Source of the DNA: Marivirga aurantiaca
GTDB lineage: Bacteria; Bacteroidota; Bacteroidia; Cytophagales; Cyclobacteriaceae
Assembly: GCF_016679925.1 (NCBI RefSeq)
Contig: NZ_JAEQBW010000001.1
Coordinates: forward strand, 682,001-746,000
Direction of reading: 5' to 3'
DNA: 64,000 nt
Position numbers and translations under genes: made by a program. Of the stretch, positions 16,338 through 35,589 are shown piece by piece. Position 1 is the first letter of the stretch. Every line of letters begins with the position of its first letter. The notes beneath the pieces are model-generated. The model saw only the letters and a program-made list of their open reading frames with translations, made no database searches and had not been told where the DNA came from.

Positions 16338-16808
16338 ATGGAAAATGAAAAGAAAAAACCACTGAAAAGAAGTCCTTCATTAGTTGCTTTTAGCAGGGAA
16401 CATCATCATTCTTTATTGTTGTGTTGGAAAATCAGGATGGCTTTCAGAAATGGAATAGATGTAAATAGAATAAAAAAATATAGTGATTGGTTCTATAAAA
16501 CGCATATGATATCTCATTTTGAAGTAGAGGAAGAGTATATATTTTCTGTTTTAGGGAGGGATGACGAACTCGTAAAGCAGGCCATGACAGAGCACAGGCG
16601 TCTGAAAAGACTGTTTGAGGACACTACAGATCCTGAAAAATCCTTAAGTCTTATCGAAGAGGAACTGGAAAAGCATATTAGATTTGAGGAAAGGGCATTA
16701 TTTCAGAAAGTGCAGCAAATTGCTAGTCCGGAACAACTTGAAACAATAAAAGAGCATCATAGGGGATTAGATTTTGTTGAAAATGAAACGGATGTTTTTT
16801 GGAAGTAA
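16338..16808 (+). CDS. Hemerythrin-domain protein
   Basis: The 156-residue product is a single hemerythrin-like four-helix bundle. Candidate iron ligands lie in SREHHHSLLLCWK, THMISHFEVEEEYIFSVL, TEHRRLKRLFED, EKHIRFEERALF and IKEHHRGLDF. Proteins of this type bind O2 or NO through a di-iron centre or act in iron storage and repair. Its neighbours (ric to the left, an NsrR-like regulator to the right) point to NO or oxygen handling, which is inference. It is convergent with the Rrf2 gene 43 bp away. Confidence 0.85.
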   Translation: MENEKKKPLKRSPSLVAFSREHHHSLLLCWKIRMAFRNGIDVNRIKKYSDWFYKTHMISHFEVEEEYIFSVLGRDDELVKQAMTEHRRLKRLFEDTTDPEKSLSLIEEELEKHIRFEERALFQKVQQIASPEQLETIKEHHRGLDFVENETDVFWK

Positions 16809-16851: not shown

Positions 16852-17286
16852 TTATAATCTCAAAAATGTTTCGCCCTTTTCCAGTTTCTCTATTAAATCA
16901 GTGATGTTGGTATTCTCCAGCATCGATTTCAACCTGGTTCTTACTTCTTTGAATTCAAAGTGAATAGGGCAAGGGGTGGCTTCAGAGCATTCACTCAATC
17001 CTAAACCACAGCCATTAAAGGTTTGTTCTCCATCAATGCAGCGCACTACATCCACCAGATATACCTTTTTCTGCTGTTCAGGACTTACGCTAAATCCGCC
17101 ATGAGGACCTTTGATCGAGGAGATGATATTATCTTTTACCAGTTTCTGTAAAATTTTGGCTGTAAATGCTACAGGGGAAGCAATGCTTTCGGCAATATCA
17201 TTAAGCCCCACATTTTTACCCTCCTTCGATTGGTTGCTTATATAAATGGTTGAGCGAATGGCGTATTCACAAGTTTTAGAGAACAT
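16852..17286 (-). CDS. NsrR-like Rrf2-family regulator
   Basis: The 144-residue product is an Rrf2 winged-helix protein (SKTCEYAIRSTIYIS, FTAKILQKLVKDNIISSIKG, PHGGFSV). Three cysteines, C93-x6-C100-x5-C106 (CGLGLSEC ... C), match the cluster-binding triad of this family; NsrR and IscR have similar but slightly different spacing. NsrR is a [4Fe-4S] repressor inactivated by NO. The gene follows queD by 30 bp on the same strand, so it should be driven from the queD promoter, which carries a candidate operator. This would allow autoregulation. IscR-like function is the main alternative. Confidence 0.82.
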   Translation of the reverse strand: MFSKTCEYAIRSTIYISNQSKEGKNVGLNDIAESIASPVAFTAKILQKLVKDNIISSIKGPHGGFSVSPEQQKKVYLVDVVRCIDGEQTFNGCGLGLSECSEATPCPIHFEFKEVRTRLKSMLENTNITDLIEKLEKGETFLRL

Positions 17287-18091: not shown

Positions 18092-20203
18092 ATGGAAAAT
18101 TATGTAATCAAAAGAAATGGGGAATACCAACCCTTTGAAATATATAAAATAGAAGATGCCATCAAGAAAGGTTTCAAAAGCCTTTCGCTTACCTATGATG
18201 CAGCGGTATTTGAAAAAGTACTGAATTTGCTGGAAACAAGGACTACCTGGACCGTGGAAGAAATTCAGGATGTGATAGAAAAACAACTTTATCACGATGG
18301 CCATTTTGAGGTAATGCGTTCTTTTATGCTCTACCGACATACCCGAAAATTGCAGAGAGAACAAAGCGGAATAAGCAATGAAACCACTTTTGTCGACAGT
18401 ACCCAAACGATTGAGGAGTATGTGAAAAAAGCTGACTGGCGCATCAAAGCCAATGCTAATACAGCCTATTCCAATGCCGGATTGGTCAATAATGTGGCCG
18501 GAAAGGTAATTGCCAATTATTGGCTGGACAAAGTGTACAATAAAGAAGAAGGTTATGCTCACAGAAATGGTGATATCCATATTCATGATCTCGATTGTCT
18601 TACAGGCTATTGTGCCGGCTGGAGTTTAAGGGTGTTGTTAAACGAAGGCTTCAATGGTGTAAGAGGTCGCGTGGAAAGCAAGCCTCCCTCACATTTCAGA
18701 GAGGCTTTGGGGCAAATGGCCAATTTCCTTGGGATTTTACAATCTGAATGGGCAGGTGCACAGGCCTTCAGCTCTTTCGATACTTATTTGGCACCTTATG
18801 TTTTCAAAGATCAACTGGAATATAAGGAGGTGCTAAAAGCAGTAAGAAGCTTTGTGTATAATCTAAATGTTCCTGCACGCTGGGGCCAGTCGCCTTTTAC
18901 TAATATCACCCTGGACTGGGTAGTGCCTGATGACCTGAAAGATCAAATTCCAACCAAAAGGGATGTACACCTTTTTAAAGGATTACAAGAGCAGCTATTG
19001 TTGAGATTAGCTGCTGAAAGAGGAGTTAATAAACCTGAAAATCTGACTTACAAACATTTCCAGCCTGAAATGGATATGATCAATAAAGCCTATTATACTG
19101 TAATGACTGAAGGAGATGCCAATTCTCAACCATTTACTTTCCCTATTCCTACGGTGAATATTACAGAGGATTTCGACTGGCATGGTGAGAATACCGACAT
19201 ACTTTTTGAAAATACGGCTAAAATAGGATCTTCTTATTTCCAGAATTTTATCGGCAGCCAGTATATGTATGATGAAGACGGCAATAAAGTAGATAATCCC
19301 TTAGCCTACAAACCTAATGCGGTAAGGAGCATGTGTTGCAGGTTGCAGCTGGATTTAAGAGAGCTATTAAAAAGAGGCAATGGTCTGTTCGGAAGTGCGG
19401 AAATGACTGGTAGTTTAGGTGTGGTCACAATCAATATGGCCAGGCTCGGCTATTTGTACAAAGGCAATAAAGAAGGCTTATATGAAAGGTTGGATTTCCT
19501 GCTGGATTTAGCTAAATCTACCTTAGAGAAAAAGAGGGTGTTTATACAGGAAATGTACGACAGGGGATTGTACCCCTACACCAAAAGATATTTAACTCAT
19601 TTCAGAAACCATTTTTCCACTATAGGCGTGAACGGAATGAACGAAATGTTGCGCAATTTTACTGATGATTCCGAAGATATAACCGGCACAAAAGGAATGG
19701 CTTTATCAGCGGAAATACTGGAATTTATCCGGAACAGAATGAAGCAATATCAGGAGGAAACGGGTAACTTGTATAATCTGGAAGCAACTCCTGCTGAAGG
19801 CACTACTTATCGCTTTGCCAAGGAAGACTTAAAACGCTTTCCTGATATATTGCAGGCCGGTAATGACGGTAATATTTACTATACCAACAGCTCGCAAATC
19901 CCTGTTAATCATACAGATGATCCTTATGAAGCATTGATGTTGCAAGATGATTTACAATGTATGTACACAGGCGGAACAGTACTTCACCTATATATGAGGG
20001 AGAAAATAAGCTCGGCTGAAGCATGCCGTAATCTGGTCAAAAAAGTCCTGACTAATTTTAAATTGCCTTATATCACTGTTACACCGGTATTCAGCATTTG
20101 TCCTACCCATGGCTATCTGAATGGCGAGCATGAATACTGCCCAAAATGCGATGATATCCTGAAAGAGAAATTGGAAACCACCGGAATGGAAGAGCAGGAT
20201 TAA
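18092..20203 (+). CDS. nrdD: Anaerobic ribonucleoside-triphosphate reductase lacking its glycyl-radical domain
   Basis: Class III ribonucleotide reductase makes deoxynucleotides without oxygen. The 703-residue product has an N-terminal ATP-cone (YVIKRNGEYQPFEIYKIEDA), the catalytic barrel with DLDCLTGYCAGWSLR and RSMCCRLQLDLREL, GSLGVVTINMARLGY, and a C-terminal zinc site (SICPTHGYLNG ... YCPKC). It stops 17 residues after CPKC. Fused enzymes continue here into the RVxGY glycyl-radical segment, which is absent. That segment is encoded by a separate small gene 145 bp downstream in another frame. The site at 18035 suggests regulation with the NO-response genes. Confidence 0.93.
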   Translation: MENYVIKRNGEYQPFEIYKIEDAIKKGFKSLSLTYDAAVFEKVLNLLETRTTWTVEEIQDVIEKQLYHDGHFEVMRSFMLYRHTRKLQREQSGISNETTFVDSTQTIEEYVKKADWRIKANANTAYSNAGLVNNVAGKVIANYWLDKVYNKEEGYAHRNGDIHIHDLDCLTGYCAGWSLRVLLNEGFNGVRGRVESKPPSHFREALGQMANFLGILQSEWAGAQAFSSFDTYLAPYVFKDQLEYKEVLKAVRSFVYNLNVPARWGQSPFTNITLDWVVPDDLKDQIPTKRDVHLFKGLQEQLLLRLAAERGVNKPENLTYKHFQPEMDMINKAYYTVMTEGDANSQPFTFPIPTVNITEDFDWHGENTDILFENTAKIGSSYFQNFIGSQYMYDEDGNKVDNPLAYKPNAVRSMCCRLQLDLRELLKRGNGLFGSAEMTGSLGVVTINMARLGYLYKGNKEGLYERLDFLLDLAKSTLEKKRVFIQEMYDRGLYPYTKRYLTHFRNHFSTIGVNGMNEMLRNFTDDSEDITGTKGMALSAEILEFIRNRMKQYQEETGNLYNLEATPAEGTTYRFAKEDLKRFPDILQAGNDGNIYYTNSSQIPVNHTDDPYEALMLQDDLQCMYTGGTVLHLYMREKISSAEACRNLVKKVLTNFKLPYITVTPVFSICPTHGYLNGEHEYCPKCDDILKEKLETTGMEEQD

Positions 20204-20348
20204 ATCTGTGGGGCAATAGAGGTTATAAAATTTAAGGTGCTACCTAAATTTAGATGTTTATTTAAAGGATGGGCCTTCTGAAATCGTGGTAGAACCAAAT
20301 TTAATATTACTCAAATCAAAATCAATCGAAAACTAAAATTAAGAAAAC

Positions 20349-20522
20349 ATGGAAACACAAATCAAAACACAATCAACCGTAGAAGCACATAGTGAAATGA
20401 GAACAAAATGTTTGGTCTATACCCGCGTAATGGGCTATCACAGGCCGGTAGAAAGCTTTAATATCGGTAAAAAAGGGGAACACCAGCAACGTACGCACTT
20501 TGATGAAAAAAGAGAGAAATAA
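20349..20522 (+). CDS. Free-standing glycyl-radical subunit of NrdD
   Basis: This 57-residue product matches the C-terminal end of ordinary NrdD enzymes. It contains KCLVYTRVMGYHRPVESFNI followed by GKKGEHQQRTHF, which fits the pattern R-V-x-G-Y-x-R-P ... N-x-G-K-x-x-E. Gly29 is the predicted radical glycine. NrdD upstream lacks this segment and the frames differ, with stops between, so no simple frameshift explains the split. The last 20 bp overlap the nrdG start, implying translational coupling. I infer that NrdG puts the radical on this peptide, which then completes NrdD. An A-rich AAGAAAAC precedes the ATG. Confidence 0.85.
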   Translation: METQIKTQSTVEAHSEMRTKCLVYTRVMGYHRPVESFNIGKKGEHQQRTHFDEKREK

Positions 20523-21198
20523 TCCTATTTATGATATAACACCTTTTACCTTATTGGATTATCCTGATAAAGCAGCCTGCATTCTTTGGTTTGCAGGCTG
20601 TAATATGCGATGCGGCTACTGCTATAATCCGGATATAGTCTTTGGTAAGGGAAAGAAAGGAACAGCTGAAGCCTTGTCATTTTTGCAGAGTCGTAAGGGT
20701 TTGCTGGATGGAGTAGTAATGAGCGGGGGAGAGTGCACGCTTCATAAAGAATTAATTCCGCTGTCGCAACAAGCAAAAGCCCTTGATATGTCCATTAAAA
20801 TAGATACTAACGGCAGCAGGCCCAAAGTATTAAAAGCCTTGGCCGATCAACATACATTAGATTATGTAGCCCTCGATTTTAAGGCCCCGTCCCATAAATT
20901 TGATTTACTAACACGATCAAATCTTTACAAACCTTTTACAGAAAGCCTGGAATTTTTAATTGCCTCCGGTATTCCTTTTGAAGTACGGACCACCGTGCAT
21001 TCCGCGCAATTGCAGACAGCTGACATTCTGAACATGAGTGATTTTTTAACCTGCAAAGGTTATACGGGCAATTATTATCTACAGCATTTTACCAACAACA
21101 GCAAAACCATAGAAACACTACCTGATTCAGTTAAGAAAGAATTTGAAACTGACTTTTCAACTGATAGTATTCAGGTAATGATAAGGGAAAGTATATAG
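20503..21198 (+). CDS. nrdG: Anaerobic ribonucleotide reductase activating radical-SAM enzyme
   Basis: NrdG cleaves S-adenosylmethionine to create the glycyl radical needed by NrdD. The 231-residue product has the radical-SAM motif GCNMRCGYC (CxxxCxxC) near residue 30, then GVVMSGGECTLHKEL and IKIDTNGSRPKVL, which bind SAM. The ATG at 20503 is preferred over a TTG at 20500. It overlaps the small glycyl-radical gene by 20 bp, so the two proteins should be made together. Confidence 0.92.
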   Translation: MKKERNNPIYDITPFTLLDYPDKAACILWFAGCNMRCGYCYNPDIVFGKGKKGTAEALSFLQSRKGLLDGVVMSGGECTLHKELIPLSQQAKALDMSIKIDTNGSRPKVLKALADQHTLDYVALDFKAPSHKFDLLTRSNLYKPFTESLEFLIASGIPFEVRTTVHSAQLQTADILNMSDFLTCKGYTGNYYLQHFTNNSKTIETLPDSVKKEFETDFSTDSIQVMIRESI

Positions 21199-21303: not shown

Positions 21304-21960
21304 ATGCATATTCTTGATCCTATAAAGAGATTTCTTACCCGCATAGGCCTGGAGCCGGGACCAAGATGGAAAAAAGTAGCCATTGTTTCTTTTGCAGCGC
21401 TAGTAGGATTAGGATTTTATATTTTAAGGGTTAGTCACGCAGTATCCTATCTTTCTGATGATCCGCAGGCTTGCGTCAACTGCCATATCATGATGCCTCA
21501 ATACGTTACATGGAACCACAGTTCGCATAGGGAAGTAGCCACATGCAATGGTTGCCATGTACCGCACGATAATATTTTCAATCAGTATTTCTTTAAAGCC
21601 AAAGATGGGTTATACCATGCGTCAGTTTTTACCATGCGTGCAGAACCACAGGTCATTCATGCATTGGAAGCTTCACAGGCAGTGATCCAAAGTAATTGTA
21701 TCAGATGCCATGTAGATCAGGTAACGGATGCTAAAATGGATGCCTTTGTGACGGACCATCATTCCAAAAGAACTGACAGAACCTGTTGGGAGTGCCACAG
21801 GGATGTACCGCATGGCAGGGTAAAAAGTTTATCTTCAGTAGGAAGCCAGATCGAACCTATTAAAATGCATGTGCCCGAGGACAGGGAGATTATTCCAAAA
21901 TGGCTTAAGCAATCTATGAAAAACCAAAATTCGCAAAAACCTAAAACTATATCACCATGA
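21304..21960 (+). CDS. nrfH: NrfH-type tetrahaem quinol dehydrogenase subunit
   Basis: NrfH takes electrons from quinol in the membrane and passes them to NrfA. The 218-residue product has one N-terminal membrane helix (about 24-46) and four CxxCH haem sites at 57-61 (CVNCH), 81-85 (CNGCH), 132-136 (CIRCH) and 161-165 (CWECH). CVNCHIM at the first site resembles the CxxCHxM haem with methionine ligand described for NrfH. The stop overlaps the nrfA start by 4 bp, so they are translationally coupled. Confidence 0.95.
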   Translation: MHILDPIKRFLTRIGLEPGPRWKKVAIVSFAALVGLGFYILRVSHAVSYLSDDPQACVNCHIMMPQYVTWNHSSHREVATCNGCHVPHDNIFNQYFFKAKDGLYHASVFTMRAEPQVIHALEASQAVIQSNCIRCHVDQVTDAKMDAFVTDHHSKRTDRTCWECHRDVPHGRVKSLSSVGSQIEPIKMHVPEDREIIPKWLKQSMKNQNSQKPKTISP

Positions 21961-23450
21961 AGAACTGGATACTATTTGGCGTAACGGCTATAGCAGTATT
22001 TTTACTGGCAATGCTGGCCTATACTATTATTGACAGAAAAGCTGAGGCAAGATTTGCCTACCAGCCTACAGTTGAAATAGAAGGTATTGAACCCAGGGAT
22101 TCTGTTTGGGGATTGAACTATCCGAGGCAATATCAGTCATACATGCAAACGGCAGACACCACTTTTAAAAGCATGTACAATACCAGCGGTTTTGCAGATA
22201 TACTGGACGAACAATCGGAATTAGTAGTGTTATGGGCAGGATATGGCTTTGGTAAAGATTATAATCAGCCTCGAGGCCATGCATATGCAGTAGCTGATAT
22301 TTTAAAAACTTTAAGAACCGGTGCTCCTTTAAAAGAAGGAGAGGGGCCAATGCCGAGCACTTGCTGGACTTGTAAAAGCCCGGATGTGCCCCGTTTAATG
22401 AGTGAAATTGGGGTAACAGAGTATTATAGTAAGCAATTTTCGGATTTTGGTAGCCAGGTGATAAATCCAATTGGCTGTGCGGATTGTCATGATCCCAATA
22501 CAATGAATTTAACCATCACCCGACCTGCTTTAATAGAAGCTTATGAAGCCATGGGAAAAAATATCAATGAGGCTTCACACCAGGAAATGCGATCATTAGT
22601 ATGTGCCCAATGCCATGTGGAATATTATTTCGATAAGAACAAACCTGGTGCTGAAGGCGCCAATTACCTTACTTTTCCATGGAAAGATGGAATGGGCGTG
22701 GAGGCAGTGGAAGCTTATTATGATAAAACAGATTTTGCCGATTGGGTGCATCCAATTAGTAAAACCCGCATGCTGAAAGCACAACATCCTGATTACGAAT
22801 TGTATACGGAAGGAGTTCATGCTAAACGTGGAGTGAGCTGTGCCGATTGCCATATGCCTTATAAATCTGAGGGCGGACAAAAATTCACGGATCACCATAT
22901 AGGATCTCCTTTGGAGAATGTGGAGAATTCATGCTTTGTATGCCATAGAGAAAAAGTTTCTGACCTTGTAAATGATGTGTACGAGCGCCAGAGAAAAGTG
23001 AAAGAAGGAACTTCTCAATTACAGACTTTAATAGCCAAGGCGCATATTGAAGCAGGGAAAGCCTGGGAATTAGGTGCCACTGAAGAGCAGATGAAGGAAA
23101 TTTTAATGGGTATCAGGCATGCGCAATGGCGATGGGATTACTCAGTAGCCTCCCATGGTGCAGCTTTTCATGCGCCCCTTGAAACCAGCAGGATAGTCAC
23201 TTCCGCCACAAGGATTATCATGGAAGCCAGAATAGAATTAATGCAACTATTAAATACACTTGGTCATTCCGGAGATGTAGAAATGCCTGATCTGAAGAGC
23301 AAAGAATCCTTACAGGAGTATACCGGAATAGATATAGAAAAAGAGAGGTATAATAAAGAAAAGTTTCTGGAGGAGATAGTGCCAAAATGGATGAAAGAGG
23401 GGAAAGAAAGGGAAGCAAAAATGAATGTTAAAAAAGTGGGCTCAAAATAA
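21957..23450 (+). CDS. nrfA: Ammonia-forming cytochrome c nitrite reductase
   Basis: NrfA reduces nitrite to ammonium with six electrons. The 497-residue product has an uncleaved anchor or signal segment (residues 4-24) and five haem sites: the special catalytic CWTCK at 136-140 and CADCH 174-178, CAQCH 216-220, CADCH 295-299 and CFVCH 326-330. The lysine-ligated CxxCK haem is the hallmark of this enzyme. It also reduces NO and hydroxylamine in known homologues. Downstream lie a porin and a CcsBA-type synthase gene, giving an nrfHA-porin-nrfI unit. Confidence 0.97.
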   Translation: MKNWILFGVTAIAVFLLAMLAYTIIDRKAEARFAYQPTVEIEGIEPRDSVWGLNYPRQYQSYMQTADTTFKSMYNTSGFADILDEQSELVVLWAGYGFGKDYNQPRGHAYAVADILKTLRTGAPLKEGEGPMPSTCWTCKSPDVPRLMSEIGVTEYYSKQFSDFGSQVINPIGCADCHDPNTMNLTITRPALIEAYEAMGKNINEASHQEMRSLVCAQCHVEYYFDKNKPGAEGANYLTFPWKDGMGVEAVEAYYDKTDFADWVHPISKTRMLKAQHPDYELYTEGVHAKRGVSCADCHMPYKSEGGQKFTDHHIGSPLENVENSCFVCHREKVSDLVNDVYERQRKVKEGTSQLQTLIAKAHIEAGKAWELGATEEQMKEILMGIRHAQWRWDYSVASHGAAFHAPLETSRIVTSATRIIMEARIELMQLLNTLGHSGDVEMPDLKSKESLQEYTGIDIEKERYNKEKFLEEIVPKWMKEGKEREAKMNVKKVGSK

Positions 23451-30879: not shown

Positions 30880-32643
30880 TTACTGATTTTTAATTTTTGT
30901 GTACAATTTCACTAGTGAATGGATTAAATCCTCCGGTTGAGATAATATTTGGTAATGGTTTTGCCCGAACATTTGGGGCAGATAGTATTTTGCCTGCGAC
31001 TCAATGGCCACCGCATAGGAATTGATATTTTTCAGATCGAATTCCTTCAATGCCTGCTTCACATCTTGCACTCCATATCTCCCTTCATAGCGATCATAAT
31101 CGTTGGGTTTTCCATCGCTCAGCAAAATCACCCATTTATTTTGGCTTTCCCTGCTTTGCAAGCGGGTGCCGGCATGACGAAGCGCAGTGCCAATTCTTGT
31201 ATAACCACTTGGAGCAATGGCACCTACTTTGTGTCGGGCCTGTGCCCATTTCTCATCGAAATCTTTGATAGTAATATAGCTGGAGTGATTTCTGGTTTTG
31301 GAATAAAATCCATCTATACAGAAATCGATTCCGAACTCATTCAATATTTCACCAAAAAGTATAGATACTTCCTTTTCCACATCCAATACCTTTCGGTTGT
31401 TCACAAAACTGTCAGAGGAAAGGCTTAAATCCAGTAATATCATTAAGGAAAGGTCTTTCTCTTTTTTCCTGTTATCGATATAGATATTTTCATTGGGAGT
31501 TCTTTTGGCGTGAATATCTGTATAGAAATCCACCACAGCATCCAAATCGAAATTAGCACCACTGGAAAGCCTTTTCTGCTGTTGGGCTTTGTTATTGATG
31601 GAAGCCACCATTTTCCGCAGTGAATTCAGTACGCTTTTATTTTTTTGGATAGTATTTTGATAATAATTGACATCAAGCTCATGCTGAAAATCAGGAAAGA
31701 GTTTGCAGAAATCTTGTTTATAGCTTTTTGATTTATAGTCCCATTCATCATAAGCAATAAAGAATTTTTTACTATCCTTTTCGGCACTTTCCGAGACCGT
31801 GGCTTGTTCCACAAAATCTGCTTGATATACAGAATGAACAGTTTCATCTACCCGTACTGTTTGCCGCATACGCAATTCTTCCAGGGCATCCTGGTGTTTT
31901 TCCAGTTCATCAGATCCGTCAAAATCACGCCATACCCCATCATGCTCTTCCGCAGTTTCTACTTTTTCAAAATTATGCAGCAGTACATAATCCTCCTGTT
32001 GTTTTTTATCAATGCTGAGACTTTTAATTTCCTCGACAGCCCGGGCTTTCAGTATGGTGTTGGCTTTATCAGTCGGTTTTTGGACCTTTTCATCAAAGTT
32101 TTTTAAAAGCTCATTTTCCTGTGCAGTATTTTGGTGCAGCATCCATTTGCCATAAAGCATGCTGAAATCCGCAGCCTTGTCATCCTCTGCCTTACTTTCG
32201 AAATGTTTATAGAGTTTATCATGTAACTGTTCTGCCAGGGGAAATTGCTCATAAAGGACGGGCAAAATTTCTTCGGCACTTTCTAAAGCCATTTTGCGTG
32301 ATAAAATGACATCATCTTCAGGATAGTTCCAGTTGATATTTTTTTCCTGCTGTATACTTAGATAAAGTAGCCTGAAAAAATAGAAAGAGAGGTTTTCTTC
32401 TTTAGTGGGCATTTCCGAAAATACAATTGGCATAAAAAAATTATTGCCTTTATAGCCACCCTCTGCCTCTGCCGGAAATATTTCTATTGCTTTGCCGGTG
32501 ATAGCGCGAGTCAACAAAGTGAGTCTGGGTTTAATATCTTCCAGTGCTACTTTCTGAGGCAGGCAATTGTTTGTTTTATCTTTCTTGTTTTTCAGGTATT
32601 TGGCTACTTTGCCAAAAATCCATTCATCCAGATCAAGTCCCAT
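30880..32643 (-). CDS. norD: NorD-like VWA-domain protein
   Basis: NorD works with the AAA+ protein NorQ to mature NO reductase, probably by inserting the non-haem iron. The 587-residue product has a long N-terminal region without clear motifs and a C-terminal von Willebrand A domain (about 395-585). Its MIDAS motif is LLDLSLSSDS, with GYTRIGTALRHAGTRL and WVILLSDGKPNDYD following. It is separated from norQ by 175 bp that contain a MITE-like repeat. Confidence 0.9.
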   Translation of the reverse strand: MGLDLDEWIFGKVAKYLKNKKDKTNNCLPQKVALEDIKPRLTLLTRAITGKAIEIFPAEAEGGYKGNNFFMPIVFSEMPTKEENLSFYFFRLLYLSIQQEKNINWNYPEDDVILSRKMALESAEEILPVLYEQFPLAEQLHDKLYKHFESKAEDDKAADFSMLYGKWMLHQNTAQENELLKNFDEKVQKPTDKANTILKARAVEEIKSLSIDKKQQEDYVLLHNFEKVETAEEHDGVWRDFDGSDELEKHQDALEELRMRQTVRVDETVHSVYQADFVEQATVSESAEKDSKKFFIAYDEWDYKSKSYKQDFCKLFPDFQHELDVNYYQNTIQKNKSVLNSLRKMVASINNKAQQQKRLSSGANFDLDAVVDFYTDIHAKRTPNENIYIDNRKKEKDLSLMILLDLSLSSDSFVNNRKVLDVEKEVSILFGEILNEFGIDFCIDGFYSKTRNHSSYITIKDFDEKWAQARHKVGAIAPSGYTRIGTALRHAGTRLQSRESQNKWVILLSDGKPNDYDRYEGRYGVQDVKQALKEFDLKNINSYAVAIESQAKYYLPQMFGQNHYQILSQPEDLIHSLVKLYTKIKNQ

Positions 32644-32696
32644 GATTCATTCATTTAGGTGTTGACTTATATTTGAGTGTTTTTTCATTAATCCCC

Positions 32697-32786
32697 CAAT
32701 GCTATTAAGTTAAGCTTTAATTGAAACCCCATCCTTGCATCCTTCCCCAAAGAGAGAAGGAGAATTGTCTTAACTTTATAGCATTG
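32697..32786. repeat. MITE-like 90-bp repeat, copy 2
   Basis: Inverted ends (CAATGCTATTAAGTTAAG and CTTAACTTTATAGCATTG) flank an AT-rich core with a CTTCTC/GAGAAGG-like hairpin. It is the reverse-complement relative of the element at 13489-13579 and sits between norQ and norD, inside the nor operon. Confidence 0.75.
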
Positions 32787-32818
32787 AAACCCAACTCAGC
32801 AGGAGAGGGATTAAGACT

Positions 32819-33595
32819 TTAAATCATCAAATCACATAAATCTTTCAATGAAGTAGTGGTATGTTCATCATCGGTAAGAGGTTCCACCACTGCTACATGC
32901 ATACTCTGTCTTTTGCCCAGTCCGCTATGGATTAAAATTGAAGCATCCACTAATAACCTTGTAGAAACAGTTTCAGCAAGACCTAATTCTGTCAGGTTTC
33001 TTATCTTATTGCCTATAGCCACAATTTTTTTAGCATTGCTATGGTCGATTCCACTTTCTTTTTCTAAAATATGGGTTTCTGTTTTGGCTTCCGGATAGTG
33101 GAATGAAAGTGCAATAAACCTTTGCCTTGTAGAAGGCTTCAATTCTTTAAAGCCTTTTTGATAGCCAGGGTTAAAAGAGGCTACCAACATAAAATTAGGA
33201 TCTGCTTTTATAGTTTCGCCCAGCTTATCAATAAAGAGTTCTCTTCTATGATCAGTCAGGGAGTGAATAGCCACTACCACATCCGGACGGGCTTCCGCCA
33301 ATTCATCCAGATAAAGAATAGCCCCTTCTTTAATGGCAGTGGTCATTGGCCCGTCTACCCAAACTGTTTCAGCTCCTTTGATAATATACCGGCCGATTAA
33401 ATCCGTGGCTGAGGTTTCTTCATGGCAACTAATAGTAATTAATCTTTGACCTAGTTTTTCTGCCATGAACTCCACAAAACGGGATTTCCCGCAACCTGTA
33501 GGCCCCTTTAATAATAAAGGTAATTTATTGCGCCAGGCATGTTCAAAAATCTCTGCCTCATTATTTATTTCCTGATAAAATGGTAAGTTTTCCAT
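32819..33595 (-). CDS. norQ: NorQ-type MoxR AAA+ ATPase
   Basis: NorQ is the ATPase partner of NorD in activating NO reductase. The 258-residue product has Walker A (LLKGPTGCGKSRFVEF), Walker B (AILYLDELAEARPDVV), sensor 1 (FMLVASFNPGY) and the Arg-finger region PSTRQRFIALSF of the MoxR family. It lies 122 bp after norB, with a large hairpin in between, which may set a different expression level from norCB. Confidence 0.92.
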   Translation of the reverse strand: MENLPFYQEINNEAEIFEHAWRNKLPLLLKGPTGCGKSRFVEFMAEKLGQRLITISCHEETSATDLIGRYIIKGAETVWVDGPMTTAIKEGAILYLDELAEARPDVVVAIHSLTDHRRELFIDKLGETIKADPNFMLVASFNPGYQKGFKELKPSTRQRFIALSFHYPEAKTETHILEKESGIDHSNAKKIVAIGNKIRNLTELGLAETVSTRLLVDASILIHSGLGKRQSMHVAVVEPLTDDEHTTTSLKDLCDLMI

Positions 33596-33635
33596 CTTTG
33601 ATATTTTTAGATTTGTTTCTGATTGTCATTAAAAA

Positions 33636-33710
33636 GTGATGTGGCCGGAAATCATCTTAACTATGAAAATTAATAAGCTAACCAAAGCTATTTCCGGCCT
33701 TTTACATCAC
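33636..33710 (-). terminator. Long-stem hairpin between norB and norQ
   Basis: GTGATGT+GGCCGGAAAT (33636-33652) pairs with ATTTCCGGCC+ACATCAC (33690-33710), a 17-bp stem with a 4-nt bulge and a 37-nt loop. On the minus strand it starts 7 bp after the norB stop and is followed by five T residues. It may be a partial terminator or an RNA-stability element that favours norCB over norQD. Confidence 0.65.
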
Positions 33711-33717
33711 GATTCAA

Positions 33718-35100
33718 CTAACTGACCAATTGTGGTTTAACCGGTTCATCGTTATTTACACCAAGTTCATTTTTCTCCATGGCTTCATCTGTTGGACGGC
33801 CAAATTTTATGAATTCATAGATGTAAATACCTATGCCTGTGGCAAACATAGTGGCGCAGACCAACATCACTGCGAAGTGAACCACTACCTCATCCTGAAC
33901 GACCATAAAGTCCATCTTTAATTTTCTTTCCAGGTAAACCTGCACTACACCTGCTACTCCCATTGCTGTAACCATTCCCAGCATCCCGATATTGGAAAGC
34001 CAGAAAGCAAGATGGCCGGCAGTATTGTTAAAGCGTTTCCTGCCCGTCATATTAGGCATACTGTAACTAATAATTGCCAGAACAATCATTGCATAAGCTC
34101 CCCAGAAAGCATAGTGGCCGTGCATGGCAGTAACCAAAGTACCATGGGTGTAGATATTAGTTTGCGGAAGCGTATGGGCAAATCCTAATAAACCTGCTCC
34201 TATAAAGGATACGATGGAAGCTCCGATAGTCCAGAACAAAGCGATTTTGTTGGGGTGGTTCTTTTCGCCTTTTCTGTACATATACACAGCAAATAAGGCC
34301 ATTGCCAAAAATGCCAGAGGCTCCAGAGCAGAGAAAATACCGCCAACTATTATCCAGATTTTATTTACTCCTATATAGTAGTAGTGGTGACCTGTACCTA
34401 AAATACCTGAAAGGAAAGTTAAACCTACAATTACATACAGCCATTTTTCAATCACTTCTCTGTCCACACCGGTCAGTTTGATCAAAAGAAAAGCAAGTAT
34501 ACCACCCATAATCAGTTCCCAAACACCTTCTACCCATAAATGGACTACCCACCAGCGGAAAAATGAATCTGTTACCTGGCTGTCGAACCAGATCATACCA
34601 GGTAGGTACAATAAAGCAGCGAAGAGTAAACCCATCACCAATACCATGGCCGTGGTGGTTCTTCTTTTACCTTTATATAAGGTGGTAATGATTATACCGA
34701 GGAAAAGTAATACATTAATTACTACCAGGTAATCCAGTTCCCTTGGGATTTCCAAAAATTTTCTCCCTTCCCAGATATTGAAATGATAACCTGTGATGGC
34801 GGCAACTCCCACCAATGCCAGGGAGATTAATTGTACATAAGCCAGTTTTACGCTCACCAGTTCTCGTTGGGCTTCCTCCGGAATTATATAATAGGCTGCC
34901 CCCATAAAACCACTGAGCAACCAAAGTACCAATAAATTGGTATGGACCGCACGTGCAGTATTAAACGGAGCAAATTCATGTAATACATCAAAACCGATAC
35001 GTGCAAAGCCCATAATAAAGCCGTACACTATTTGTAGGGAAAACAGCAGCATACACAAGGCAAAAAACCAGTAAGCTACTTTTTGGGATTTATATTTCAT
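33718..35100 (-). CDS. norB: Nitric oxide reductase subunit B (cytochrome c-dependent type)
   Basis: NorB is the catalytic membrane subunit that reduces two NO to N2O. The 460-residue product has about twelve membrane helices and the key motifs of cNOR: a haem-b His in RAVHTNLLVLWLL, WVVHLWVEGVWEL with the active-site His and Glu, GTGHHYYYIG, the Glu in FSALEPLAFL, and HGHYAFWGAYAMI. It lacks the long N-terminal extension of quinol-dependent NorZ, in keeping with the separate NorC upstream. Confidence 0.96.
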   Translation of the reverse strand: MKYKSQKVAYWFFALCMLLFSLQIVYGFIMGFARIGFDVLHEFAPFNTARAVHTNLLVLWLLSGFMGAAYYIIPEEAQRELVSVKLAYVQLISLALVGVAAITGYHFNIWEGRKFLEIPRELDYLVVINVLLFLGIIITTLYKGKRRTTTAMVLVMGLLFAALLYLPGMIWFDSQVTDSFFRWWVVHLWVEGVWELIMGGILAFLLIKLTGVDREVIEKWLYVIVGLTFLSGILGTGHHYYYIGVNKIWIIVGGIFSALEPLAFLAMALFAVYMYRKGEKNHPNKIALFWTIGASIVSFIGAGLLGFAHTLPQTNIYTHGTLVTAMHGHYAFWGAYAMIVLAIISYSMPNMTGRKRFNNTAGHLAFWLSNIGMLGMVTAMGVAGVVQVYLERKLKMDFMVVQDEVVVHFAVMLVCATMFATGIGIYIYEFIKFGRPTDEAMEKNELGVNNDEPVKPQLVS

Positions 35101-35136
35101 CTTTTTATTGTTAAGGTTAGAGAAATCACTGTCAAT

Positions 35137-35589
35137 TTATTTGTTCTTCATTTTTTCCATTCTGTCTTTTGCCAGGGGAGAGACCATATGGTCAAACCCA
35201 TTGAGATCCAGTTCTCCTATCCATTTAAAATATTCAATCATGGCCTCAGCATCTTCCTCGCTCATTTCGTAGGCCACCATTTTTCTTCCGTTCGGGGCCC
35301 ATGGTACCGGGGACATCAGAATTGCCTTTATGACAGGCTCACCTTTTCTTTCCACTACTTTAGTGAGCTCAGGCGCGTAATAGCCGCCTTCGCCCATAAT
35401 GGAATGGCAACCCATGCAGTTATTCGTTTCCCACAGGTGCTTGCCTTGTATTACTTCCGCAGTAATATTTTCATGGTTTGTCTGGTCGTTGGACGGCATC
35501 ATGGAATAGATTGTTAAGCCAATAAAAATCAGGAAGGTGACCAGTGTACCTCCGAGAAAAAAAGCTTGAGCTTGTGATTTTGATAACAT
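35137..35589 (-). CDS. norC: Nitric oxide reductase subunit C (membrane cytochrome c)
   Basis: NorC carries electrons from periplasmic donors to NorB. The 150-residue product has one N-terminal membrane helix (AFFLGGTLVTFLIFIGLTIY) and a single haem site CMGCH at 58-62 within ETNNCMGCHSIMGEGGYYAP, typical of NorC. A Met in KMVAYEMSEEDAE may be the distal ligand. It is the first gene of the nor operon, 36 bp before norB, with a degenerate copy of the operator-like motif 34 bp before its ATG. Confidence 0.93.
   Translation of the reverse strand: MLSKSQAQAFFLGGTLVTFLIFIGLTIYSMMPSNDQTNHENITAEVIQGKHLWETNNCMGCHSIMGEGGYYAPELTKVVERKGEPVIKAILMSPVPWAPNGRKMVAYEMSEEDAEAMIEYFKWIGELDLNGFDHMVSPLAKDRMEKMKNK

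Follow-up and report, generated by a model that had tools for sequence, protein, structure and literature searches.

Can the glycyl radical of an anaerobic (class III) ribonucleotide reductase (RNR) be carried by a small protein of its own, and can such a protein be exchanged? The question is raised by a locus of Marivirga aurantiaca in which the gene order is nrdD, a 57-codon open reading frame (ORF) and nrdG. It lies in the window, the whole 64,000-nt stretch analysed here (contig NZ_JAEQBW010000001.1, positions 682,001 to 746,000). Class III NrdD structures have been solved for T4, Thermotoga maritima, Prevotella copri and Streptococcus thermophilus, and these enzymes and the window locus have in common the ATP-cone, the NRDD barrel, the zinc motif, the RVxGY segment and NrdG. 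Unlike in the enzymes of solved structure, the radical segment in the window is a separate protein of ~57 amino acids, and the NrdD chain stops past the zinc motif. Oxygen cuts glycyl-radical enzymes at the radical glycine, and if the radical chain is detachable, facultative bacteria could replace ~6 kDa rather than ~80 kDa.

The two-chain operon

The features of the locus and its surroundings are as follows.

18092..20203, plus strand: nrdD, catalytic subunit of 703 amino acids without RVxGY; ATP-cone, barrel and zinc motif; single copy in the genome
18101..18349, plus strand: ATP-cone, NrdD residues 4-86 (PF03477)
20099..20149, plus strand: presumed zinc motif C-x2-H ... C-x2-C, NrdD residues 670-686 (sequence)
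20204..20348, no strand: gap of 145 nt between nrdD and the peptide gene (sequence)
20349..20522, plus strand: free-standing glycyl-radical subunit of 57 amino acids, PHROG 4132 family (sequence and profile matches)
20424..20447, plus strand: RVMGYHRP motif, with the codon of the radical Gly29 at 20433-20435 (sequence; Gly29 invariant in the 41-row alignment A2)
20500..21198, plus strand: nrdG, radical-SAM activase of the NrdG2 type (TIGR02495, 180.5 bits, above cut-off)
16338..16808, plus strand: hemerythrin-domain protein, context (PF01814)
16852..17286, minus strand: Rrf2-family regulator, context (PF02082)
21304..23450, plus strand: NapC/NirT-type cytochrome (nrfH-like) and cytochrome c552 (nrfA-like), context (PF03264, PF02335)
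30880..35589, minus strand: nor-like cluster of VWA protein, CbbQ/NirQ/NorQ ATPase, COX1-family subunit and cytochrome c, context

The C-x2-H ... C-x2-C stretch of the window NrdD is taken by us to be the zinc motif; in the 35-row alignment A5 its equivalents show no variation at C671, H674 and C684 and almost none at C687. The chain ends with CPKC and 17 further residues. A first-pass annotation of this DNA had proposed that NrdD ends after the zinc motif and that the missing RVxGY segment is encoded by a separate small ORF, and the profile ranges bear this out. NrdD covers positions 2-528 of 562 in Pfam NRDD (PF13597; 543 bits, above cut-off) and 3-649 of 684 in NF006126 (1082 bits). The peptide covers NRDD 531-562 (28.0 bits against a cut-off of 26.2, E 1.1e-6; 24.7 bits, just below the cut-off, in a whole-genome search) and NF006126 648-683. 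The two proteins complement each other as halves of a single profile, divided just past the zinc motif. The NRDD barrel, the NrdG activase and RVxGY, by which a class III RNR is recognized, are all found within the locus, RVxGY being absent from NrdD's own chain. The spacing of 145 bp, the different frame of the peptide ORF and its overlap of 20 bp with nrdG, all given in that annotation, agree with the coordinates when nrdG is read from the ATG at 20503; with the TTG at 20500 the overlap is 23 nt.

A second, intact fused NrdD, named beforehand as a finding that would count against a two-chain enzyme, was looked for by profile search in the whole assembly (5.01 Mb, 99.98% complete), and none was found. 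The genome has one NrdD and one radical peptide, and also holds one class I/II large subunit (PF02867).

Distribution of the split

The two-piece NrdD arrangement is widespread, and the list of genomes sharing it, proposed earlier as a check, is long. Among the best 80 of at least 583 relatives in the genome collection, NrdD and peptide are split in all 78 loci that contain NrdD; the other two (L028, L076) begin at a contig end. The distance from the nrdD stop to the likely peptide start ranges from -41 to +287 nt and is below zero in 53 of the 78 loci. The two ORFs stand in different frames in 67 loci and in the same frame in 11, with five loci (L036, L039, L044, L045, L048) having them in frame across a single stop. 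Chance is excluded by the same order and separate ORFs in 78/78 loci, together with the strong constraint on the peptide core described below (dN/dS 0.024).

In a survey of the family, NRDD was found in 12 of 60 genomes; nine of these have the split form, while in three (G010, G029, G049) the protein is fused and of another type. In the genus of the window, the other genome (G055) is without NRDD. The peptide alignment A2 matched 21 of 392 genomes in a Bacteroidota sample, comprising ten stand-alone peptides as judged by open-frame length, nine fused proteins and two marginal matches (G229, G370) that were rejected as peptides, being without the motif. In Campylobacterota, 130 of 298 genomes matched, 127 of them with short open frames of 48-104 amino acids and three (G560, G636, G741) with a fused form.

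Plasmid records matched the window peptide in 28 cases and the Cupriavidus peptide in 29. Profile searches of 15 plasmid regions gave 11 split, two fused (Actinomyces L106, Acidiphilium L115) and two with the peptide alone. The split form is found on plasmids of Cupriavidus necator H16, C. metallidurans, Sulfuricurvum, Bradyrhizobium, Thiothrix, Cereibacter, Shinella, Paracoccus, Azospira, Sulfuricystis and Aquabacterium, and the small plasmid gene is also labelled 'nrdD' by NCBI. NrdDs in databases may seem 'truncated' for no other reason than that a small gene of its own encodes the radical chain.

On two of these plasmids (Bradyrhizobium p2S06B, L103; Thiothrix pTfr153, L107) the NrdD homology lies in two frames, with peptide and nrdG intact. 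On pAZI09 of Azospira sp. I09 (L112) the split class III genes stand between the class I large and small subunit genes, and adjoin an integrase and a Tn3 transposase.

The C. necator H16 nrdDG locus on pHG1 has the architecture of the window, with a 676-aa NrdD without RVxGY, a separate 66-aa radical peptide and nrdG. Its operon, a betaproteobacterial plasmid copy, adjoins nitric-oxide reductase, Rrf2 and hemerythrin genes; in the window the hemerythrin, Rrf2 and nrfHA-like genes are neighbours of the operon, and the nor-like cluster stands further off. This nrdDG was reportedly studied by Siedow et al. in 1999. The first-pass statement that no NrdD of this kind has been characterised is thus doubtful, since the split architecture is present in H16. 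In the accessible part of the literature, nrdDG on pHG1 is described as essential for complete denitrification in H16 (PMC2864759), and the CH34 NrdDG is given as Rmet_5137 and Rmet_5139, with one locus number lying between. Among the matches listed in a literature search, which covered few subscription journals, titles and opening abstract lines did not announce a free-standing NrdD radical subunit.

Unlinked genes

In two Campylobacterota genomes the parts are separated. In G574 the only NrdD lies at C1:104221 and the peptide-nrdG pair at C1:9453, ~95 kb apart; in G709 the only NrdD lies at C7:184710 and the pair at C7:63368, ~121 kb apart. No peptide was found in the 6.5 kb around either nrdD (L290, L291). 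With the sole nrdD this far from the peptide gene, the parts act in trans. The separate radical subunit proposed in the first-pass annotation is upheld by these genomes, by the profile halves and by the 78 split loci. The unlinked genes also support the exchangeability suggested there, as do the orphan peptides on phages, on plasmids and in genomes with a split NrdD. In a 196-kb viral record (G793) an intein interrupts an NrdD that has no radical end (L311); the peptide gene of this record stands ~110 kb away.

Predicted structure

For AlphaFold2, the in-frame NrdD-stop-peptide of L036 was entered as one chain, with TAA read as Gln, and with the 35-row alignment A5. The model has a mean pLDDT of 80.8 and a pTM of 0.79. 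In VIA-align it superposes on T4 NrdD (1h7b) over 477 residues at 2.3 A, with end 744 on 587, and on P. copri NrdD (8p2s_B) over 556 residues at 2.7 A, with end 760 on 735. By the T4 offset of 157, the radical glycine of the peptide, residue 737 of the model, would fall on T4 residue 580, which is T4's radical glycine according to a reference title. The corresponding sum for P. copri puts it at 712, against a radical glycine stated as Gly711 in the accessible part of PMC11226230; both placements are sums from superposition end points and not residue-level read-outs. In this single-chain prediction the peptide would dock at the place of the C-terminal glycyl-radical loop of ordinary NrdDs. The active-site loop 417-437, adjoining the conserved Cys pair 416-417, has pLDDT <50.

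A first fold with the 23-row alignment A4 was dropped at pLDDT 57.5, as was alignment A3 of full-length NrdDs and short peptides, which was misaligned. The peptide searched alone against the PDB gave no match at E up to 1.

Conservation and evolutionary history

The peptide is under purifying selection. Over a 34-codon core, a short stretch for which pairs were limited to dS 0.1-1.5, the median dN/dS is 0.024 for 69 unique operonic sequences (L021-L100; 607 pairs), 0.079 for 25 Campylobacterota (L241-L269; 84 pairs) and 0.204 for 62 viral orphans (120 pairs). R18, C21, R26, M28, G29, Y30, H31, R32, P33, N38, G40, K41, E44 and R48 are invariant in the 41 rows of A2; the cysteine is absent from two peptides outside A2 (L139, L156). 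The search patterns were centred around the glycine, so that its conservation in orphans comes partly from hit selection. R18 and R48, which lie outside both alignment-scan patterns and outside the motif filter, are invariant in 68/68 unique orphan cores, and C21 in 67/68.

On a 48-row NrdD tree, for which the program issued a long-branch warning, the fused state requires six changes, and well-supported branches make four of these obligatory, so fission or fusion occurred repeatedly. Fused relatives are nested within split clades, which indicates that the separation is not indispensable. On a peptide-only tree of 38 columns the orphans cluster (18 changes, compared with 45.0 when shuffled); only a single change is obligatory on the well-supported branches, and no claim is made on the number of acquisitions.

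COX1 is a sign of oxygen or NO respiration. It occurs in 18/18 Bacteroidota genomes with a stand-alone peptide and in 3/9 with the A2-matching fused type, as well as in 3/3 genomes with the other fused type and 3/3 fused Campylobacterota. The association with the stand-alone peptide is weak, the lineages being non-independent. The gene setting would fit organisms in which O2 or NO reaches the glycyl radical.

Orphan copies on phages and plasmids

IMG/VR was scanned twice by peptide, giving 43 and 80 loci on 87 contigs distinct by name. NrdD was found by whole-record search on 2/43 and 3/44 records. Thus 82 of the 87 peptide-bearing records are without NrdD, a share of records found by peptide and not a rate among phages, in a set that includes near-duplicates, possible fragments (none is rated >=90% complete) and, within the 82, the broken copy L158. 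A weak NRDD match in G075 (503-529, E 6.5e-4) was left out of the NrdD count; G080 and G102 (= L158) gave no PF13597 match, and their peptides were found with a profile made for this analysis, that of G102 in two pieces. nrdG was found in the flanks of only two of the contigs, L139 (= L188) and L205. A scan led by NrdD gave 29 viral loci, five with a separate peptide nearby (L310, L312, L313, L314, L338), the contigs of L310 and L312 being already among the 87. The others mostly have a fused radical domain, and in four (L311, L333, L335, L337) no radical segment was found within the locus.

Phage genes lie around the orphans. The 107 flanking ORFs scanned, of 136 picked from 34 loci, include terminase, tail tape measure, head-tail adaptor, integrase and endolysin, each family being present in few members. 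An endolysin/amidase match was obtained for five of ten downstream neighbours scanned singly (L120, L121, L128, L130, L134). Among 73 orphans that differ in peptide DNA, 53 gave a downstream ORF; of these ORFs seven match PG_binding_3 and three Phage_lysozyme. The window peptide matches phrog_4132 (E 1.6e-9, profile positions 118-155 of 179), as do the nine other peptides scanned. This PHROGs family is annotated 'unknown function', and its profile of 179 positions compares with a peptide of ~57 amino acids.

On the Allochromatium plasmids pALVIN01 and pAt1 (L105, L110) the peptide is present and NrdD is absent from the record. Phage isolates in INPHARED gave no match to the window peptide at E 0.01, and three weak matches to the Cupriavidus peptide at E up to 1, of which two carry an NrdD annotation and the third lies on an unannotated record. 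The orphan form is thus seen in IMG/VR, plasmids and genomes, and was not seen in the INPHARED isolate collection.

A 145-kb viral record (L154 / G098) holds an NrdD with its own radical domain and a free-standing peptide ~40 kb off; this NrdD carries an interruption of ~2 kb that separates profile positions 428 and 431.

Extra copies in genomes with split NrdD

All 14 Campylobacterota genomes with more than one match row were opened. Nine of them have intact orphan copies, defined as copies without nrdD or nrdG within the flanks, beside a single split NrdD: two each in G574 and G709, and one each in G670, G700, G730, G757, G610, G708 and G706, 11 copies altogether. Neighbours of phage function were found at 8/11, including endolysin (L275, L280, L285, L287), tail fibre (L270, L272, L287) and Mu-like transposition genes (L279, L293). 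Of the remaining three, L283 has only phage families of unknown function as neighbours, L273 has a single tested neighbour without a match and a peptide the same as that of IMG/VR record L129, and L289 stood outside the neighbour-function tests. When orphan and operonic cores of the same genome are compared, 2-10 of 36 positions are different; a rare Leu31 is common to both cores in G706. An extra copy is broken at the radical glycine in G621, G599, G649 and G586, and with L158 five orphan or extra copies are so broken.

A proposed exchangeable radical subunit and its alternatives

These observations are probably explained by a class III RNR of two chains, with a radical subunit that can be exchanged and that phages carry, in the manner of T4 Y06I for pyruvate formate-lyase. 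NrdD would supply the ATP-cone, the catalytic barrel and the zinc motif, the docked subunit of ~57 residues would receive the radical on Gly29 from NrdG, and a radical chain acting in trans would be replaceable. By analogy with Y06I, phages and a few plasmids may carry the peptide alone as an exchangeable subunit for the host NrdD. We lean, with less assurance, towards the view that the radical subunit of RNR is a mobile and exchangeable part, which numerous phages and a few plasmids carry alone and plug into two-chain NrdDs of the host, renewing or hijacking its anaerobic supply of DNA precursors. The benefit may be an enzyme renewed after damage by O2 or NO, or a dNTP supply boosted during infection.

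It is conceivable, if on balance unlikely, that phage copies raise or deregulate dNTP synthesis of the host and do not repair damage, for example by staying docked when dATP would dislodge the host's own subunit. When dATP acts on the fused P. copri NrdD, the glycyl-radical domain becomes mobile and activity ceases, according to the accessible part of PMC11226230. The differences between orphan and operonic copies would suit such a role, but they may be drift. This reading is compatible with the two-chain, exchangeable subunit and does not exclude it.

Neutral gene fission, with the peptide a permanent subunit made together with NrdD, never exchanged and its separation functionless, is rather doubtful. 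The three genes are adjacent in the window and in nearly all operons, often overlapping (53/78), and a permanent subunit would look the same; the interchange of fused and split forms on the NrdD tree also suits it. It is opposed by the unlinked genes of G574 and G709, and by orphans on phages, on plasmids and as extras in nine genomes with a split NrdD.

Phage copies could also act as decoys or inhibitors by occupying the NrdD or NrdG of hosts or rival phages, since free peptides this small could contend for one and the same docking site and some extra copies are broken; this is improbable given the purifying selection on viral orphans and the invariance of R18 and R48, and near-invariance of C21, in the orphan cores. 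A sequencing error, pseudogene, frameshift or stop read-through that really gives one chain is hardly credible despite the few loci in frame over a single stop, being refuted by the unlinked genes and countered by the 78/78 split loci in many independent assemblies, the different frames in 67 of them with variable distances, and the strong selection on the peptide; with it falls the joined-frame error that the first-pass annotation had listed as a possible objection.

If the exchangeable-subunit reading is true, the peptide would constitute a spare-part system for ribonucleotide reductase and give a function to the unannotated phage family phrog_4132. The two chains would offer a natural system of two components in which radical loading and the control of class III RNR by dATP can be studied, and the question of spare parts beyond pyruvate formate-lyase would become directly testable.

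Relation to known spare parts and split enzymes

GrcA/YfiD and T4 Y06I, the spare parts of pyruvate formate-lyase, are likewise small, free-standing glycyl-radical domains, also phage-borne; spare parts for other glycyl-radical enzymes are considered possible, with only YfiD and Y06I validated, in the accessible part of PMC8683613. The GrcA/YfiD family differs from the window peptide, which at E up to 1 matches PF13597 only and not PF01228 (Gly_radical), so that a relationship to GrcA by sequence was rejected. GrcA/YfiD also duplicates the radical domain of its parent enzyme, whereas the window NrdD has no radical domain for the peptide to duplicate, and its genome no second copy of the peptide; nine other genomes hold extras. 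The class II RNR NrdJa/NrdJb is also an RNR in two chains, of another class (accessible part of PMC9669993). Fragmented nrdD genes of phages, and others that mobile elements have split, are described in the accessible part of PMC3653736, and are a different matter from the split of the radical subunit.

Interrupted and rearranged genes

Several copies of the genes are interrupted or rearranged. In Campylobacterota, G720 (L277) has a second nrdD-peptide-nrdG operon with nrdD in two frames. In the extra copies of three genomes (L306, L307, L308), ~100 bp of other sequence stands in place of the segment that follows RVMG. The viral contig L158 (2599-2776) and the Campylobacterota locus L302 (4800-4950) have an identical insertion of 7 nt at the codon of the radical glycine, with both sides conserved, representing either a broken lineage or translational bypass.

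In G793 the NrdD intein (L311:2998-5871) carries an HNH endonuclease domain, and L333 (a 160-kb record) has the same profile layout. The peptide gene of G793 (L339:957-1932) is itself interrupted, directly after the radical glycine codon, by ~0.8 kb. A search of this copy against Rfam yielded nothing at the gathering threshold, and up to E 5 no intron family appeared. The insert holds an ORF with stretches that by eye are LAGLIDADG-like, and beyond it the peptide continues as YHRPVETFN.
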